Origin: an uncultured Bacilli bacterium
GTDB taxonomy: Bacteria; Bacillota_I; Bacilli_A; RF39; UBA660
Length of the DNA: 32,970 nt
Assembly: GCA_947630055.1 (NCBI GenBank)
Contig: CANRGA010000011.1
Span: 1 to 32,970 of the forward strand
Direction of reading: 5' to 3'
The notes below the pieces were generated by a model that ran no database searches, had not been told where the DNA came from, and saw only the letters and a list, made by a program, of their open reading frames with translations. How positions within the stretch are numbered: the stretch's first letter is position 1; each line of letters begins with the position of its first letter. Shown in pieces: positions 9,521 to 27,199 of the stretch. The translations under genes and the position numbers were made by a program.

Positions 9521-10105
9521 ATGACAGATATATGTGGACAATGTACAAGACTTGATTGGAACAATAAAGAAAAGTGGTCAAGTGTAGATAAATACTGGTG
9601 TAAAAGTGGCCATGGTTATAGAGAACCAAATGAGAAAAAATGTAATTATGATTTTTGCTATAACCATGAATCTAGTCATACACCTAGTAATGGCTACACA
9701 CCAAGTGGTTGCTATATAACAACAATGGTATGTAATATCTTAGGCTATGAAGATAATTGTTCTCTACTTTCATTACTAAGAAAATTTAGAGAAAATGTCT
9801 TAAAATGTGATTTTAGATATTATCAACTATTAATTCAATATGATATGATTGGTCCTATGTTAAGTAAAGCAATTTTAGATAAAGAAGACAATTATTCTTA
9901 TGCTCTTCATATGTGTAATGATTTTCTTCTACCTTGTGCATCTCTTATCAAAGAAGGTATGTTAGATGGTGCTGTAGAAGTATATAAAAATATGGTTCAA
10001 AGTTTAAGTGACGATTTTAATATAGTAATACCTGAACCTAAAAGATCAGCAAATTATGAAATAAATACTTTAGGAAAAGCTAGAATTTTAAAAGGAAACG
10101 CTTAA
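9521..10105 (+). CDS. Cys-rich CFI-box-like protein
   Basis: The 194-residue soluble protein starts with a cysteine-rich region (CGQC, then C27, C42 and C47) that could bind a metal. SGCYITTMVCNILGYEDNCS and then LLSLLRKFRENVL resemble the 'CFI-box' C-terminal domain (C[FY]ITTA...LG..D....L..LR.fRd). The remaining part is predicted helical. The function of that domain is unknown. The gene stands alone between the divergent AAA+ gene and a structured RNA candidate. Assignment is from motif memory. Confidence 0.55.
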   Translation: MTDICGQCTRLDWNNKEKWSSVDKYWCKSGHGYREPNEKKCNYDFCYNHESSHTPSNGYTPSGCYITTMVCNILGYEDNCSLLSLLRKFRENVLKCDFRYYQLLIQYDMIGPMLSKAILDKEDNYSYALHMCNDFLLPCASLIKEGMLDGAVEVYKNMVQSLSDDFNIVIPEPKRSANYEINTLGKARILKGNA

Positions 10106-10123: not shown

Positions 10124-10152
10124 TTTACTTTAGGTAACCTATGTAATATAAT
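10124..10152 (+). promoter_or_regulatory. Promoter of the structured RNA candidate
   Basis: TTTACT (10124-10129) is exactly 17 bp from a perfect TATAAT (10147-10152). No open reading frame follows. Confidence 0.65.
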
Positions 10153-10158
10153 TAATTA

Positions 10159-10302
10159 AACAAGACATAGTATATATTAGAAATAATTGTATTATTTCTT
10201 GCGAGTCTGAATCAACACATTAATTTGTGGCGTGGTAAGGACTCGACCCGCTGTCGGTTGGAAGGACCGCTTAAAAGAGCAACTGTAATAGGTTGTTTTT
10301 TT
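10159..10302 (+). ncRNA. Structured small RNA candidate, family undetermined
   Basis: A non-coding stretch of about 145 nt runs from a good promoter to a terminator. It is far richer in G and C than other intergenic DNA here. Visible helices: AGAAATAAT/ATTATTTCT (about 10178-10198, loop TGT); CGAGTC (10202-10207) with GACTCG (10240-10245), enclosing CACA/TGTG; CGGT (10255-10258) with ACCG (10266-10269); and the terminator CAACT/GGTTG (10280-10295) followed by seven Ts. It is not 6S, tmRNA, SRP or RNase P by signature sequences. The raiA RNA class is a guess based on host group and compact GC-rich core; I could not check it. The T tract overlaps the stop codon of the convergent DUF3800 gene. 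Confidence 0.55.
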
Positions 10303-10969
10303 ATTGTAAGTATTTTTTACTTATTTCTTTAAGTTTTGTACTTATTTCAAAACCATTAAAAAAATATTTTTCTTGATTGTTAAGTGCAATATGTTTTTTA
10401 TACATAAAATTAATTTTTTCTAAAACACATAACATATCCGCTATTTGAAATAATCTTTCTTCTTTATGATTAAATTCTTCTATTAATTCATAGTTGTAAT
10501 GTTCAAATACTGCTTTTAGTATATTTTTTAATTTTTCTTGACCATTATCATAGTAAATAATAATGTTATCATATTTTAAAAAATAATCTTTATTATTTTC
10601 CAACATAATTTTTATTTTATTTATAATATCTTGTCTTAATTGTATTTTATTATTTTTATATTTTTTATCTACTACAATTGATTTTGTCTTAATGTCACAT
10701 TTTAAGGCAAAGTAAAATAAAGATGAGAATAATTTTTTTCTATCTTCTAATTTCATTTTGGCATATTCTTTTCGATTAGCAATTAACTCTGCTGTATGAA
10801 TCATACCATTATAATTTAGTGATTTTAATTTTTCATTTAAAAAATCTATTTTAGTTCTTAATGATTTAGAAGTATCATGAAATACAAACGATGCAACATA
10901 TAATTCTGAAGATTTTTCCGTAAAGCCAAAATCACCACTTTCATCAACATAAATTTTTAATTTTGACAT
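10301..10969 (-). CDS. DUF3800 family protein
   Basis: The 222-residue protein begins KLKIYVDESGDFGF, the signature of DUF3800, thought to have an RNase H-like fold with acidic active-site residues (here D8, E9 and D12). Later family-like parts are NIIIYYDNGQEKL and RLFQIADMLC. Members occur on phages and near defence genes; the biochemical role is unknown. A clear GAGGT ribosome site precedes ATG 10969. It is separated from the glycosyltransferase gene by that gene's terminator. Confidence 0.75.
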   Translation of the reverse strand: MSKLKIYVDESGDFGFTEKSSELYVASFVFHDTSKSLRTKIDFLNEKLKSLNYNGMIHTAELIANRKEYAKMKLEDRKKLFSSLFYFALKCDIKTKSIVVDKKYKNNKIQLRQDIINKIKIMLENNKDYFLKYDNIIIYYDNGQEKLKNILKAVFEHYNYELIEEFNHKEERLFQIADMLCVLEKINFMYKKHIALNNQEKYFFNGFEISTKLKEISKKYLQ

Positions 10970-22896: not shown

Positions 22897-23136
22897 ATGA
22901 ATGCAAAAGAAACTTTAAATCTAATATCTAAACAATGGTGTAATCTAGCTGATTTACAAAAACTAACAGGATTAGGAAAAAATAGCGCACTTAAATTAAA
23001 AAACGAAATAAAAATAGATTTAATGAATAAGGGCTATTTATTACCTAGTAAATTACTACCAATGAATGAAGTAGTCAGTTATTTAAAAATAAATATAAAT
23101 TATCTTCAAAAAATGGCAAAAGAAATAAACAATTAG
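22897..23136 (+). CDS. Small HTH protein, excisionase/replication accessory-like
   Basis: The 79-residue protein contains NLADLQKLTGLGKNSALKLK, an HTH-like segment, and a basic ILPSK-type middle, ending NINYLQKMAKEI. Short proteins like this precede RepA-type ATPases or act as excisionases in integrative elements; the family name is not certain (DUF3173-like is a possibility). Ribosome site GAGAGGTG is close to ATG 22897. The next gene follows after 12 bp. Confidence 0.55.
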   Translation: MNAKETLNLISKQWCNLADLQKLTGLGKNSALKLKNEIKIDLMNKGYLLPSKLLPMNEVVSYLKININYLQKMAKEINN

Positions 23137-23148
23137 AAAGGTTGAAAT

Positions 23149-24102
23149 ATGAAAAAGATAAGTGAAATTAGAAAAGAAAATATAAAAAAAGAATTCATAG
23201 TTGATAACCTTATGAAATCTAATGGACTCTATTGCCTAGTTGCAAGACCAAAAGTTGGCAAATCATTATTGGCACTACAACTTGCTAACTCGGTCGCAAC
23301 AGGCACTGACTTTTTGGGAAATAGAACAAGTCCATCTCCTGTCTTATATATTAGCACTGAAATGGATTCCACGCAAATTTTAAATAGAATAGATATGATG
23401 GGTTTACAATTTAATGATAATAATTTTTTAGTCATAGAACAAAATGTGGGAGAAAGGAAGTTAAACCTTATGGATTTGCAAAGTCAATTTCAAGAGTTTG
23501 CAAATGAATATAATGGTAAACTTGTAATAATAGATATGTTTAGTGGCATTGATTTAAATAATGGTTACGATTTAAACAACTATCAAGATATGGGACAAAT
23601 TGTTATACCAAAATTTAGAGAAATGTGTAAAAAATATAATTTTACTATTCTACTTGTTCATCATTTGAATAAAAATAATACTTCATTAGGAAGTACAGCA
23701 ATAGATGGATCAGTTGATGGCAAAATTACTTTAAAGGAAGACAGCAATATAAAAAATAAGATTATCTTTAACTATGAAAGTAGAGATTTTGAGAGTATTG
23801 ATTTAGTCTTAAAAAGAAATAAAAATTTAATATTTGAAATATCAAAAGTTGAAAGTGATGACTTAAATGTTAATTTAGTTATATTTTTAAATTATGCAAT
23901 AAAGCAACAAGAATTTACTTTTACATCATCTGAAATAACTAGTAAATTAAACTTACAAATTACACCATCAACATTTGGTAGATTATTAAATAATAATATA
24001 GCAAATTTGGAAAAAGAAGGTCTTTATATAGAACAAAAAAGAACAGCCGAAGAAAGAACATATATTGCTAGATATAAAGAACCTGATTATGATAATCAAT
24101 AA
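23149..24102 (+). CDS. RepA-like AAA_25/RecA-fold ATPase
   Basis: The 317-residue protein has a RecA-type core. Walker A is ARPKVGKSLLALQLANSVA (about 33-51), followed by VLYISTEMDSTQILNRI. Walker B is LVIIDMFSGID, then TILLVHHLNK and SLGSTAIDGSVDGKITL. These match the AAA_25/RSF1010 RepA-like hexameric helicase family used in plasmid and mobile-element replication. The last 80 residues look like a winged-helix region. It likely unwinds DNA at the element's origin; the hairpin-rich region that follows directly is a candidate. It is co-transcribed with the small HTH gene. Confidence 0.75.
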   Translation: MKKISEIRKENIKKEFIVDNLMKSNGLYCLVARPKVGKSLLALQLANSVATGTDFLGNRTSPSPVLYISTEMDSTQILNRIDMMGLQFNDNNFLVIEQNVGERKLNLMDLQSQFQEFANEYNGKLVIIDMFSGIDLNNGYDLNNYQDMGQIVIPKFREMCKKYNFTILLVHHLNKNNTSLGSTAIDGSVDGKITLKEDSNIKNKIIFNYESRDFESIDLVLKRNKNLIFEISKVESDDLNVNLVIFLNYAIKQQEFTFTSSEITSKLNLQITPSTFGRLLNNNIANLEKEGLYIEQKRTAEERTYIARYKEPDYDNQ

Positions 24103-24440
24103 TTCTTACTAATAATTTTTGTAACTTTTTCTTAAAAAGTTAAAGTAAAAAATGAACGAGGCAAGTTTTGTTTTCGTAAGAAAATGAAATTGGCGATAGT
24201 GAATATTTTTACAATTTTTAAAAACTTTTTAAAAATTTGCATTAATAATAACTACTACTTTATTAGTTATTATTAATGGTTGTTTGAAGCATTTGCCTTT
24301 TCGTAAGATTAGGCATTTGCGAAAAACAATAAGGGGTTTTTAGGGAACTCCCTAAACTCACGATAATGGGCTATGCCCTAGTGAGATAGGTCATAAATGA
24401 CCTTTACAAAGAAGAATCAGTGAAAGGAGGGTTTTGAAAT
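24103..24440. other. Candidate oriT/replication origin, rich in hairpins
   Basis: No gene lies here. Repeats in order: TTTTTGTAACTTTTT (24116-24130, also at 22593-22607); TTTTCGTAAGA twice (24171-24181 and 24298-24308); AATTTTTAAAAA and its inverse around one C (24213-24237); a perfect 15-bp inverted repeat CATTAATAATAACTA (24240-24254 and 24264-24278); GCATTTGC twice (24289 and 24313); TTTAGGG/CCCTAAA (24339-24356); a nested hairpin CTCAC/GTGAG enclosing GGGC/GCCC (24357-24385); AGGTCA/TGACCT (24388-24403). The nested hairpin nearest the MobV relaxase gene is the best nic-site neighbourhood. Confidence 0.6.
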
Positions 24441-25874
24441 ATGTATGATGGAAAACAAGTTTTAAGATTAGAAACCAAATATAAAGCAAAAGATTTATAT
24501 AATATAGGTATTGAAATGAACGAAAGAAAAGGTACAGGAAACTATGATAAAGAAAGGTCAAAATTTAATGTTAATTATGTATCATTAAATGAAAGAAATC
24601 TATATCAAGAAGTAAAACAAACCTTAAAAAATAGAAATATTGATTATTTAAATAAGCCAAGTACAAATCTACTAAATGGTGTAACATTTACTAGTGGAAA
24701 TGAATTTTTTGAAAGTTTAGGTATGAAATTTGTAAATAGTGATAGAGTTTATAAAACAGGTAATAAAAAGGGACAAATTATAAAAACTCCTGTTATTAAT
24801 TCAGATAAAGATATACCACAAGCTGTTACTTATTTCTTTGATTCATGTATGGACTTTTTAAAAGAACAAGTTGGTGAAGAAAATATATTGCTTGCTCAAA
24901 TTCATTATGATGAAGATACGCCACACTTACAAGCGTATTTCTTACCTATTGTAAATGAAGTTAATAGAAAATGTTATGTTAGAGATGATAAAGGTAATGT
25001 TGTTAAAGAAGAAGTAAAAAACAAATTAGGTAATACTACTATTGTTCCCAAGTTACTTCGAGATGACAAAGGCAAAATTGTATATGAAAAAGTCAAAGGA
25101 AATTTTTTAAATAACGACCAATTTTGGAAAGATAGAGGTGGCAAAAATTCCTATGCTAAAATGCAAGATTCATTCAACAAATTTATTAATGCTAGGGGTT
25201 TTAAATTAGATCGAGGCAATATAGGAAGTAATAAAGAACATTTAACAAAATTAGAGTTTCAAATTGAAGAAAATAAGGCCGAATTAGAAGAGTTAAACAA
25301 AGAAAAGGAAAATACTTTAAAGATTATAGAAAACTCTAAAAATAGTCTAATTAAAGCCAATAAAGAGATAAATAAAGAAGTATTAAATCCGAAGAAAAAT
25401 ATTGTTGGTTACAATTCAAATGATGTTCAAAAAATAATTGATTATTCAAAAAATTTAGAACAAATAAATATTTTACAACAAAGCGAAATTGAAACCAAAG
25501 ATATTACTATTAATAAGTTATCTATGGAAAATGAATCATTTAAAAATAATGAAGATATTAAAAGAAAAAATAATATTATTAAAGAACAAAAAGATACTAT
25601 CAAAGAGCAAAAGAAAGAAATTAATCGGTTAAGTGATTTAGTAGATATTCTAAATAGTAATATTGATAATCTAAAAGAAAAATTTGAAATTGAAATTGAT
25701 AAATGGAAAAAGAGATTTAAAAAACTATGTAATGCCATAGACAAATTATTAGGTAGAAAGCCAAATGAATATGTTGAAGATTATGAAGATCTAGCTGACT
25801 CTATTAATTATGGTTATTATAGTAAAAATAAAGAAAATAAAAAAGATAAAGATGACTTTTATATAGGTATGTAG
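24441..25874 (+). CDS. MobV/Pre-family relaxase
   Basis: The 477-residue protein has the N-terminal Mob/Pre relaxase domain with the metal-binding HYDEDTPHLQAYFLPI (about residues 154-169), the HxDExxPHxQ-like signature of the MobV family. VNYVSLNERNLY near residue 45 and RGGKNSYAKMQDSF near 234 fit the domain. The last 190 residues are charged and helical with long coiled coils. It would nick oriT and lead the strand into a helper conjugation system. It starts at ATG 24441 after GGAGG, directly next to the hairpin-rich region, and the integrase follows after 15 bp. Confidence 0.85.
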   Translation: MYDGKQVLRLETKYKAKDLYNIGIEMNERKGTGNYDKERSKFNVNYVSLNERNLYQEVKQTLKNRNIDYLNKPSTNLLNGVTFTSGNEFFESLGMKFVNSDRVYKTGNKKGQIIKTPVINSDKDIPQAVTYFFDSCMDFLKEQVGEENILLAQIHYDEDTPHLQAYFLPIVNEVNRKCYVRDDKGNVVKEEVKNKLGNTTIVPKLLRDDKGKIVYEKVKGNFLNNDQFWKDRGGKNSYAKMQDSFNKFINARGFKLDRGNIGSNKEHLTKLEFQIEENKAELEELNKEKENTLKIIENSKNSLIKANKEINKEVLNPKKNIVGYNSNDVQKIIDYSKNLEQINILQQSEIETKDITINKLSMENESFKNNEDIKRKNNIIKEQKDTIKEQKKEINRLSDLVDILNSNIDNLKEKFEIEIDKWKKRFKKLCNAIDKLLGRKPNEYVEDYEDLADSINYGYYSKNKENKKDKDDFYIGM

Positions 25875-25889
25875 AAAGGATGTGATTAA

Positions 25890-27014
25890 ATGCCTGTTTA
25901 TCAAGAAAAAAACAAAAAAAAGATTTCTAAAAAAGGTAATAGTTGGTATTTTAGATGTTATTATACTGATATATATGGTAATAAAAAGCAAATGCAATCT
26001 AAAATGTATAAAAGTAAAACTATTGCCAAAGATGAAGAATTAAAATTCTTAACAAGTATAAAAAATAATACTAATGAACAAGATGTCTATTTTGAAGAAT
26101 TGTATAATTCTTGGTGGGAAGTAAAGAAAAAAAAGTTAAAAATTACAAATGCTAATAATTTAAAATTATCATTAGATAAAAATATATTAGCATTTTTTAA
26201 ACCTTTTAAATTAAAATCTATAACTATTAAAGTAATGAATGAATACTTAAATTGGCTAGAAAATAAAGATTTAACAATAAATTACAAAAATTCTATGGTA
26301 AGTTATTGTAAAGAATGTTTTCTATACGGAACAATTTATTATAATTTTGATATAAAAATAGCAAATTGTTTAGTAAAATTTAGAAATGATGTTCCAAAAG
26401 ATAAGCCAAAAGATAGTGAATATAATTTTTGGACATTAGATGAATTTAATAAATTTATACAAAATGTTAATGACTATTATTATAAAGTTGTATTTACATT
26501 TTTATATCGAACAGGATTAAGAATTGGTGAATTTAAAGCACTTAATTGGAATGATATTGATTTAAATAATAAAACTTTAAGCATTTCAAAAGAACTAGTT
26601 CACGGTTTAATAATAACCCCTAAAACCGAAAATTCAATTAGAATCATTGATTTAGACAATTATTTAGTAAAAATGTTAAAAGAATATAAAAAAAAGCAAC
26701 AAAGGTTATATGATTTTAATGATAAATGGTTTGTCTTTGGGGGTATTAAAAATACAAGTAATACAACTTTAAGGCGACATCTTAATAAATATATAAAAAA
26801 ATCAAATGTTAAACATATTACAATTCATGGTTTTAGGCATTCACATGTTTCATTACTTATTTATTTAGGTTGTGATAGTCGTGATGTAGCCGAAAGGATT
26901 GGTGATACTGTTCAAACAGTTGAAAGAACATATTATCATATGTTCCCTAAAAAGAAAAAAGAAACAGTCCAAAAATTAAATGATATAAGTGATATAAATG
27001 GTATTGAAAGATAG
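25890..27014 (+). CDS. Tyrosine site-specific integrase
   Basis: The 374-residue protein has an N-terminal arm-binding domain (ISKKGNSWYFRCYYTDIYGN, about 10-29), a SAM-like core-binding domain (about 60-165) and a catalytic domain. The latter shows LYRTGLRIGEFKALNWNDID (first catalytic Arg), HITIHGFRHSHVSLLIYLG (H-x-x-R) and TVERTYYHMFP (Tyr nucleophile). This is the Tn916/phage-like family. It lies about 110 bp from the right att repeat. It presumably acts on the 17-bp tRNA end and the TAAGAGGTAAA arm sites. The last codons are part of its own terminator stem. Confidence 0.9.
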   Translation: MPVYQEKNKKKISKKGNSWYFRCYYTDIYGNKKQMQSKMYKSKTIAKDEELKFLTSIKNNTNEQDVYFEELYNSWWEVKKKKLKITNANNLKLSLDKNILAFFKPFKLKSITIKVMNEYLNWLENKDLTINYKNSMVSYCKECFLYGTIYYNFDIKIANCLVKFRNDVPKDKPKDSEYNFWTLDEFNKFIQNVNDYYYKVVFTFLYRTGLRIGEFKALNWNDIDLNNKTLSISKELVHGLIITPKTENSIRIIDLDNYLVKMLKEYKKKQQRLYDFNDKWFVFGGIKNTSNTTLRRHLNKYIKKSNVKHITIHGFRHSHVSLLIYLGCDSRDVAERIGDTVQTVERTYYHMFPKKKKETVQKLNDISDINGIER

Positions 27015-27048
27015 ACAAAAAAATTGATCTATCTTTCAATTTTTTTTA
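27003..27048 (+). terminator. Terminator of the integrase operon
   Basis: ATTGAAAGATAG (27003-27014, including the stop codon) pairs perfectly with CTATCTTTCAAT (27029-27040), then T8. The stem is 12 bp. Confidence 0.85.
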
Positions 27049-27062
27049 TTTTTTTGAAAAAT

Positions 27063-27084
27063 TAAGAGGTAAATAAGAGGTAAA
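27063..27084 (+). repeat. Right arm-type integrase sites
   Basis: Two head-to-tail TAAGAGGTAAA copies, as at 18478-18499 and in the same orientation, 39 bp inside the right att repeat. Confidence 0.65.
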
Positions 27085-27113
27085 AATAATAAAACTCCCT
27101 AAAATAGGGAGTT
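27082..27113 (-). terminator. Element-supplied terminator of tRNA-Asn
   Basis: AACTCCCTA (27093-27101), loop AAA, TAGGGAGTT (27105-27113), with a T-rich tract on the minus strand. It differs from the displaced chromosomal terminator (18316-18337) by one compensated base pair in the 9-bp stem. Confidence 0.8.
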
Positions 27114-27122
27114 AAAAGCAAT

Positions 27123-27139
27123 ATGGCGCCCGATGTAGG
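27123..27139. repeat. Right attachment-site direct repeat
   Basis: ATGGCGCCCGATGTAGG is identical to 18347-18363. All but one base of it is the 3' end of the mature tRNA-Asn, including CCA. Confidence 0.85.
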
Positions 27140-27199
27140 ACTCGAACCTACGACCTAACGGTTAACAGCCGTGCGCTCTACCGACTGAGCTAATCGGGC
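27124..27199 (-). tRNA. tRNA-Asn (GTT anticodon)
   Basis: On the minus strand GCCCGAT (27193-27199) pairs with ATCGGGC (27128-27134). The anticodon loop CTGTTAA gives GTT; the T-loop is TTCGAGT; discriminator G and CCA are encoded at 27127-27124. It is intact although an element is integrated at its 3' end. Confidence 0.95.

Follow-up and report, generated by a model that had tools for sequence, protein, structure and literature searches.

A structured RNA convergent with a DUF3800 gene in gut Bacilli, and its possible role in restraining a predicted nuclease

The window analysed here, a 32,970-nucleotide stretch of a contig from an uncultured Bacilli bacterium, contains about 145 nt without an open reading frame (ORF) that an initial annotation read as a free-standing structured RNA, possibly of the raiA type and otherwise perhaps new. 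We asked to which class of RNA this locus belongs, with which gene it is linked and how the RNA may act.

The RNA, its fold and its homologues

The promoter proposed on the forward strand (10124–10152) consists of TTTACT (10124–10129), 17 nt and TATAAT (10147–10152), and agrees with the consensus at 10 of 12 positions. Taken alone, this match is no better than chance in AT-rich sequence (two promoter-like sites found in the region vs 3.9 expected). Both hexamers were nearly constant across 11 related loci whose alignment columns average 81% identity, and a TTTACW-TATAAT arrangement was also found upstream of many homologous RNAs in other genera. With its 5′ end placed at about 10159 from the −10 box, the RNA spans 10159–10302 (+ strand, ~144 nt), across which the longest ORF has 35 aa. 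The fold predicted for it has a minimum free energy of −44.1 kcal/mol (z = −5.2), equalled by none of 200 shuffled sequences. Together with the homologues recovered by covariance models, these results give good support to the annotated functional RNA with a promoter and terminator of its own.

The layout of the RNA is P1, P2, ACCCGYGUU, P3, CUUAA and terminator. The 9-bp 5′ hairpin of the initial annotation, AGAAATAAT-TGT-ATTATTTCT, is present in the sequence at 10179–10199, but the minimum-energy fold prefers a longer hairpin, P1 (10161–10201), which shares its 3′ arm with this competitor; a 5′ hairpin is predicted for nearly all homologues, with variable sequence. Both helices that had been picked out for the folded core, CGAGTC/GACTCG and CGGT/ACCG, were found. 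The former belongs to the core hairpin P2 (10202–10245), closed by CGAGTCT/GGACTCG (10202–10208 with 10239–10245) and by UUGGUCU/GGAUCAA in other genera, and the latter (10255–10258 with 10266–10269) to the short hairpin P3 (10255–10269), which reads GGCGC-CAA-GCGCC in most relatives and is followed by a conserved CUUAA. Between them lies a single-stranded linker (10246–10254; ACCCG plus CTGT in the window and ACCCGYGUU in most relatives) that occupies near-invariant columns of our alignment A4 and is a candidate protein-recognition element. Conservation along the RNA is among the highest in this unpaired linker and in P3, and no guide-like region was found. The rho-independent terminator (10273–10302) consists of an A-tract, a hairpin and a T-tract; though a simple terminator scan did not list it, the hairpin appears in the fold, is conserved and is supported by covariation.

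A BLAST search of 197 related genomes brought up roughly ten more copies within the genus, including two arranged in tandem, and the window's own genome contains further copies that the initial annotation did not mention. A first covariance model, built from 13 sequences, extended the class to other genera of the family, with matches in 22 of 386 genomes. The third helix of this model, CCG/CGG (alignment A2), was wrong, and P3 takes its place in a second model, R2, which covers the P2-P3-terminator core and was built from 31 sequences. R2 matched 18 of 38 genomes of the genus (E up to 0.01) and 37 of 288 genomes of the order, with hardly any matches outside the family, where weak ones (E about 5e-4 to 1e-3) were left out of the membership. 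Short AT-rich BLAST matches outside the genus are most likely due to chance, and one that we inspected (L013) sits in unrelated sequence. Pattern matches in Paraburkholderia, Hirschia, Thermoplasmata and four IMG/VR contigs were not covariance-model matches, and we therefore claim no phage link. The RNA class is confined to one family of gut Bacilli, where it is patchy and multi-copy.

Covariation among homologues, which the initial annotation had proposed as a check, was assessed on A4, an alignment made by sequence only on which the helices were named afterwards. In the three core helices 95.9% of the alignment cells were paired, and 15 of 23 pairs had changed on both sides. None of 500 shuffles of A4 reached any of five measures, and slid structures paired in only 32–51%. 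P2 was paired in 98.2% of cells, with changes on both sides in five of its seven pairs, and P3 had such changes in four of six pairs. The changes in P2 are blockwise, from UUGGUC/GAUCAA to CGAGUC/GACUCG. The helices were seen again in 46 distinct sequences, a set that is independent in part and whose alignment was fitted to the model.

Class of the RNA and linkage to a DUF3800 gene

The Infernal search against Rfam that had been suggested, raiA included, matched no Rfam family. With Rfam 15, the window RNA was without a match at gathering score, and at E up to 10 the RNA alone gave only two snoRNA lines (E 1.1 and 3.2), which are eukaryotic families, lie far below gathering scores and are chance. 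Ten homologous loci searched against Rfam up to E 1 likewise gave no match for the class. The annotated exclusion of 6S, tmRNA, SRP and RNase P thus stands, as none gave a covariance-model match (gathering score, E up to 10). The raiA suggestion fell by the same search: raiA RNA (RF03072; ModT, PMC11706538) is also a free-standing structured RNA in Bacillota, but the window RNA did not match it at E up to 10.

The gene on the opposite strand, which the initial annotation had not mentioned either, extends over 10301–10969 (− strand) and encodes a 222-aa DUF3800 protein (Pfam PF12686, E 1.5e-9) with a predicted RNase H fold; the T-run of the RNA terminator overlaps its stop codon by 2 nt. We mapped ORFs around 77 RNA matches, which include redundant copies of one place, and found one protein cluster beside the majority, encoded on the opposite strand and beginning a few bases past the RNA end. 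So that the gene would not be looked for solely in the company of the RNA, we then searched 288 sampled genomes of the order with a protein profile alone and compared the result with the RNA matches from the same genomes. All intact genes of this DUF3800 subfamily had a convergent RNA (27/27; intact genes without RNA, 0/27), at a spacing of 5–14 nt from the aligned coding end. The profile was built from RNA-paired proteins, but it separates the scores widely: no intact gene fell between E 7e-83 and the 1e-10 cut-off.

RNA and protein have also changed jointly (Mantel r = 0.889, p = 0.0001 between their distance matrices; 51 adjacent pairs), which could also come from linked inheritance alone. 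Proteins of the DESG type pair with RNAs bearing a CGAG-type P2 and those of the DETG type with UUGG-type P2 RNAs, except for a TGGGCC variant (L110) and CTGGUC (L136). Since the window's own genome holds both types (contigs C11 and C30), each with its matching RNA, this matching is not just species history. In our preferred reading the RNA and the convergent DUF3800 gene are the two halves of an RNA-protein cassette; their tail-to-tail pairing is near-obligatory in the genomes sampled. That the RNA is instead a stand-alone trans-acting sRNA or raiA-type RNA with an accidental DUF3800 neighbourhood seems very improbable: its own promoter and terminator, and its occasional occurrence without DUF3800, would suit such an RNA, but linkage to 27 of 27 intact genes at the same spacing in many gene contexts contradicts this reading, and neither raiA nor any other Rfam family matched up to E 10. 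Upstream of the RNA, a 194-aa Cys-rich ORF (9521–10105) had no match in Pfam. Of the other mapped loci, L005, the closest relative, is alone in having it beside the RNA, and we therefore do not count it to the cassette.

RNAs adjoin DUF3800 genes elsewhere in these bacteria. In the same genus, genes of other DUF3800 subfamilies bear DUF3800-I and -VII RNAs at their 3′ end, encoded on the other strand; another genus of the family (G407) has a DUF3800-VIII RNA arranged tail-to-tail in the same way. Because these Rfam-listed classes nearby share the convergent layout, we count the window RNA, a conserved structured RNA in convergent, 3′-adjacent position to DUF3800, to the DUF3800-associated kind. 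Like it, DUF3800-I, -VII and -VIII RNAs (RF02969, RF02967 and RF03075) are structured, listed as sRNAs, convergent and adjoining or overlapping the DUF3800 3′ end. In contrast to them, the window RNA has the consensus P2-ACCCGYGUU-P3-CUUAA-terminator and a partner from another DUF3800 subfamily, and it shows no detectable sequence or structure match to any of the three. The annotated possibility that the RNA is new thus held in that no Rfam 15 family matches it, but it is not an isolated RNA: it is a class unlisted in Rfam, of a known DUF3800-associated kind. Absence from Rfam is not the same as never having been described; putative noncoding RNAs associated with DUF3800 are attributed to Weinberg et al., 2017 (doi 10.1093/nar/gkx699) where that work is cited (PMC10910872, ref. 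59), and some of its motifs may be missing from Rfam. Further hairpin-rich stretches without an Rfam match lie 3′ of other DUF3800 genes (L141, L147, L151, L155 and L165), and those in L147, L151 and L141 are apparently codirectional with the gene, not convergent.

The partner protein and the pattern of gene loss

DUF3800 has been read as an RNase H-fold nuclease (PMC10910872; PMC12669027). The AlphaFold2 model of the DUF3800 protein is confident (pLDDT 92.9) and had its best solved fold matches in RNase HII/H2 (Foldseek E 8e-4; VIA Z 8.1), followed by Argonaute PIWI domains; a Z of 8 to RNase HII is modest, and profile-profile comparison of DUF3800 with RNase HII/HIII gave a probability of 0.7%, which does not confirm sequence homology. 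The residues D9, E10, H58, D141 and D178 were invariant in 39 sequences. The RNase H fold is thus a prediction that draws mainly on the model and the same two papers (PMC10910872; PMC12669027), and we infer nuclease activity for the protein.

Broken DUF3800 genes with the RNA still adjoining were found in five places (G000:C16, G055:C58, G530:C30, G032:C85 and G030:C9). Orphan RNAs that keep promoter and fold next to no gene remnant occurred in L099, L103, L199, L133, L074/L253, L197, L183, L248 and L249, orphans in decay in L246, L247, L250 and L251, and one with an altered linker in L107. These genomes are metagenome bins, so L112, whose RNA lies at the end of a contig, was left out of the orphans. 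Loss of the gene before the RNA fits a protein that is harmful without its RNA, which is support and not proof. The asymmetry is statistically weak, since the DUF3800 gene has about five times the length of the RNA and, as the larger mutational target, would mostly be lost first under neutral decay; from the relative lengths, we estimate the chance of no RNA-first loss in ~16 one-sided loci at roughly 5%.

Beside some orphan RNAs (L103, L107, L199 and L216) we observed a 34-nt tandem repeat (GGTGATTCCGACYATAACAGGAACTTAAAAAAGC) in up to three or more copies. Together with a terminator-like hairpin, the repeats lie on the strand opposite the RNA, at the place that DUF3800 takes in related loci, and these stretches look like a type III antitoxin array. 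In L107 an ORF of 210 aa follows the repeats; it is Fic-like, with an E of 0.002 that does not reach the Pfam cut-off, and is split in two in L103. The aligned flank of L199 and L216 showed no such ORF. In L099, a gene with a HipA_C domain (618–1481, E 1e-12) stands in DUF3800's place, convergent with and 20 nt from the orphan RNA (1501–1584); ORFs related to this one occur close to the RNA at three more loci.

Copies of the RNA are patchy, occurring in about one-eighth of the sampled genomes of the order with one to six copies per genome. Extra copies beside one DUF3800 gene are common (often two or more), and these are separate units, each with promoter-like and terminator sequences. The named relatives are metagenome-assembled Bacilli, mostly of apparent animal-gut origin (rabbit, ruminants and poultry), and include Candidatus Onthousia. 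The cassette loci lie in many unrelated contexts; a defence-island setting gave no clear sign, the flanking genes being mostly housekeeping genes. A phage collection gave one partial DUF3800 protein match and a plasmid collection none. Elsewhere in the window, positions 22897–27199 hold a probable integrated mobilisable element, named from the ORF list, in which an integrase-like ORF (25890–27014) adjoins a tRNA gene (27127–27199, − strand) and which also includes a relaxase-like ORF (24441–25874) and an AAA/RepA-like ORF (23149–24102).

How the RNA may act on the protein

The convergence of the two genes within a few nucleotides raises the possibility of an arrangement without a stable complex, in which the RNA acts on the expression of DUF3800 or of other genes, through base pairing or as a terminator common to both directions, or else is cut by DUF3800 as its substrate. 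The terminator at 10273–10302, with its A-tract and T-tract, could indeed end both convergent transcripts, but a plain terminator would not keep P2, the linker and P3, nor be duplicated with its own promoter. In a comparison limited to the mRNA start (43 pairs), the mean duplex energy was −24.2 for cognate mRNAs vs −24.0 for non-cognate and −25.1 for shuffled ones. We consider this group of explanations unlikely, and the same comparison, with cognate energies no better than the controls, gives no support to a type I antisense antitoxin. Given the conserved linker and P3, the lack of a guide-like part and the lack of specific mRNA pairing, the simplest reading is a direct RNA-protein complex.

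Such a complex could be an active one, with the RNA as a required scaffold, guide or activator of a DUF3800 ribonucleoprotein in the manner of omega RNA or tracrRNA. The obligatory pairing and joint change would fit equally well; the RNase H fold is common to RNA-guided enzymes, with Argonaute PIWI domains ranking beside RNase HII, and DUF3800 proteins occur alongside Cas12a2 and type VI-F CRISPR loci (PMC10910872; PMC12669027). Against a cofactor speak the lack of a guide-like region, the variable parts being paired (P1 and the P2 loop) and the unpaired linker highly conserved, and the persistence of intact RNAs without the gene, not expected for long of a cofactor. We hold this explanation, the chief competitor of the one we prefer, to be possible though doubtful.

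The loss asymmetry and the precedent of RCd22 and AbiF lead us to favour restraint over activation, and whether the RNA binds and restrains the DUF3800 nuclease, as RNA antitoxins do, seems to us evenly poised. The RNA would fold into P1, P2, linker and P3 and bind its own DUF3800 protein directly, probably via the end of P2, the ACCCGYGUU linker and P3. The bound RNA would hold the nuclease inactive, and loss or turnover of the RNA, for example in phage attack, would free the enzyme. The principle would be that of an RNA antitoxin, in a gene layout other than that of type III systems.

In Clostridioides difficile, RCd22 neutralises the neighbouring toxin AbiF by direct binding (PMC12373285). 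That RNA, too, is structured and stands beside its protein gene, and it acts in cis and in trans; in contrast to the DUF3800 cassette, AbiF is an Abi_2 protein and not RNase H-like, and RCd22 carries two repeated motifs and precedes the toxin gene on the same strand. Type III toxin-antitoxin systems (ToxIN, CptIN and TenpIN; PMC5086642) also have an RNA that restrains a nuclease, an activity that is only proposed for the window RNA. Their RNAs consist of short tandem repeats and precede the toxin gene within a shared operon, whereas the window RNA is a single unrepeated core, convergent with its partner gene and with a promoter separate from that of the gene. The window cassette thus has neither a tandem repeat array nor an RNA upstream in the same operon, and because of this layout we do not file it under type III.

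DUF3800-linked RNAs have no assigned function in the accessible literature. We tentatively suggest, with somewhat less than even confidence, that all of them, the present class included, are the RNA halves of a widespread, unrecognised system that serves defence or works as a toxin-antitoxin pair: a structured RNA, convergent with the nuclease gene and transcribed on its own, would keep an RNase H-fold nuclease from acting. The present cassette is a clean test case, with a compact RNA of defined core and an obligatory single-domain partner of 222 aa; it offers both RNA-protein types in one genome, and the orphan RNAs and broken genes serve as natural controls. Should restraint of the enzyme by the RNA hold true, RNA families now listed separately would unite into a single kind of RNA-protein control system, and a mechanistic frame would emerge for the DUF3800 proteins beside Cas12a2 and type VI-F loci.
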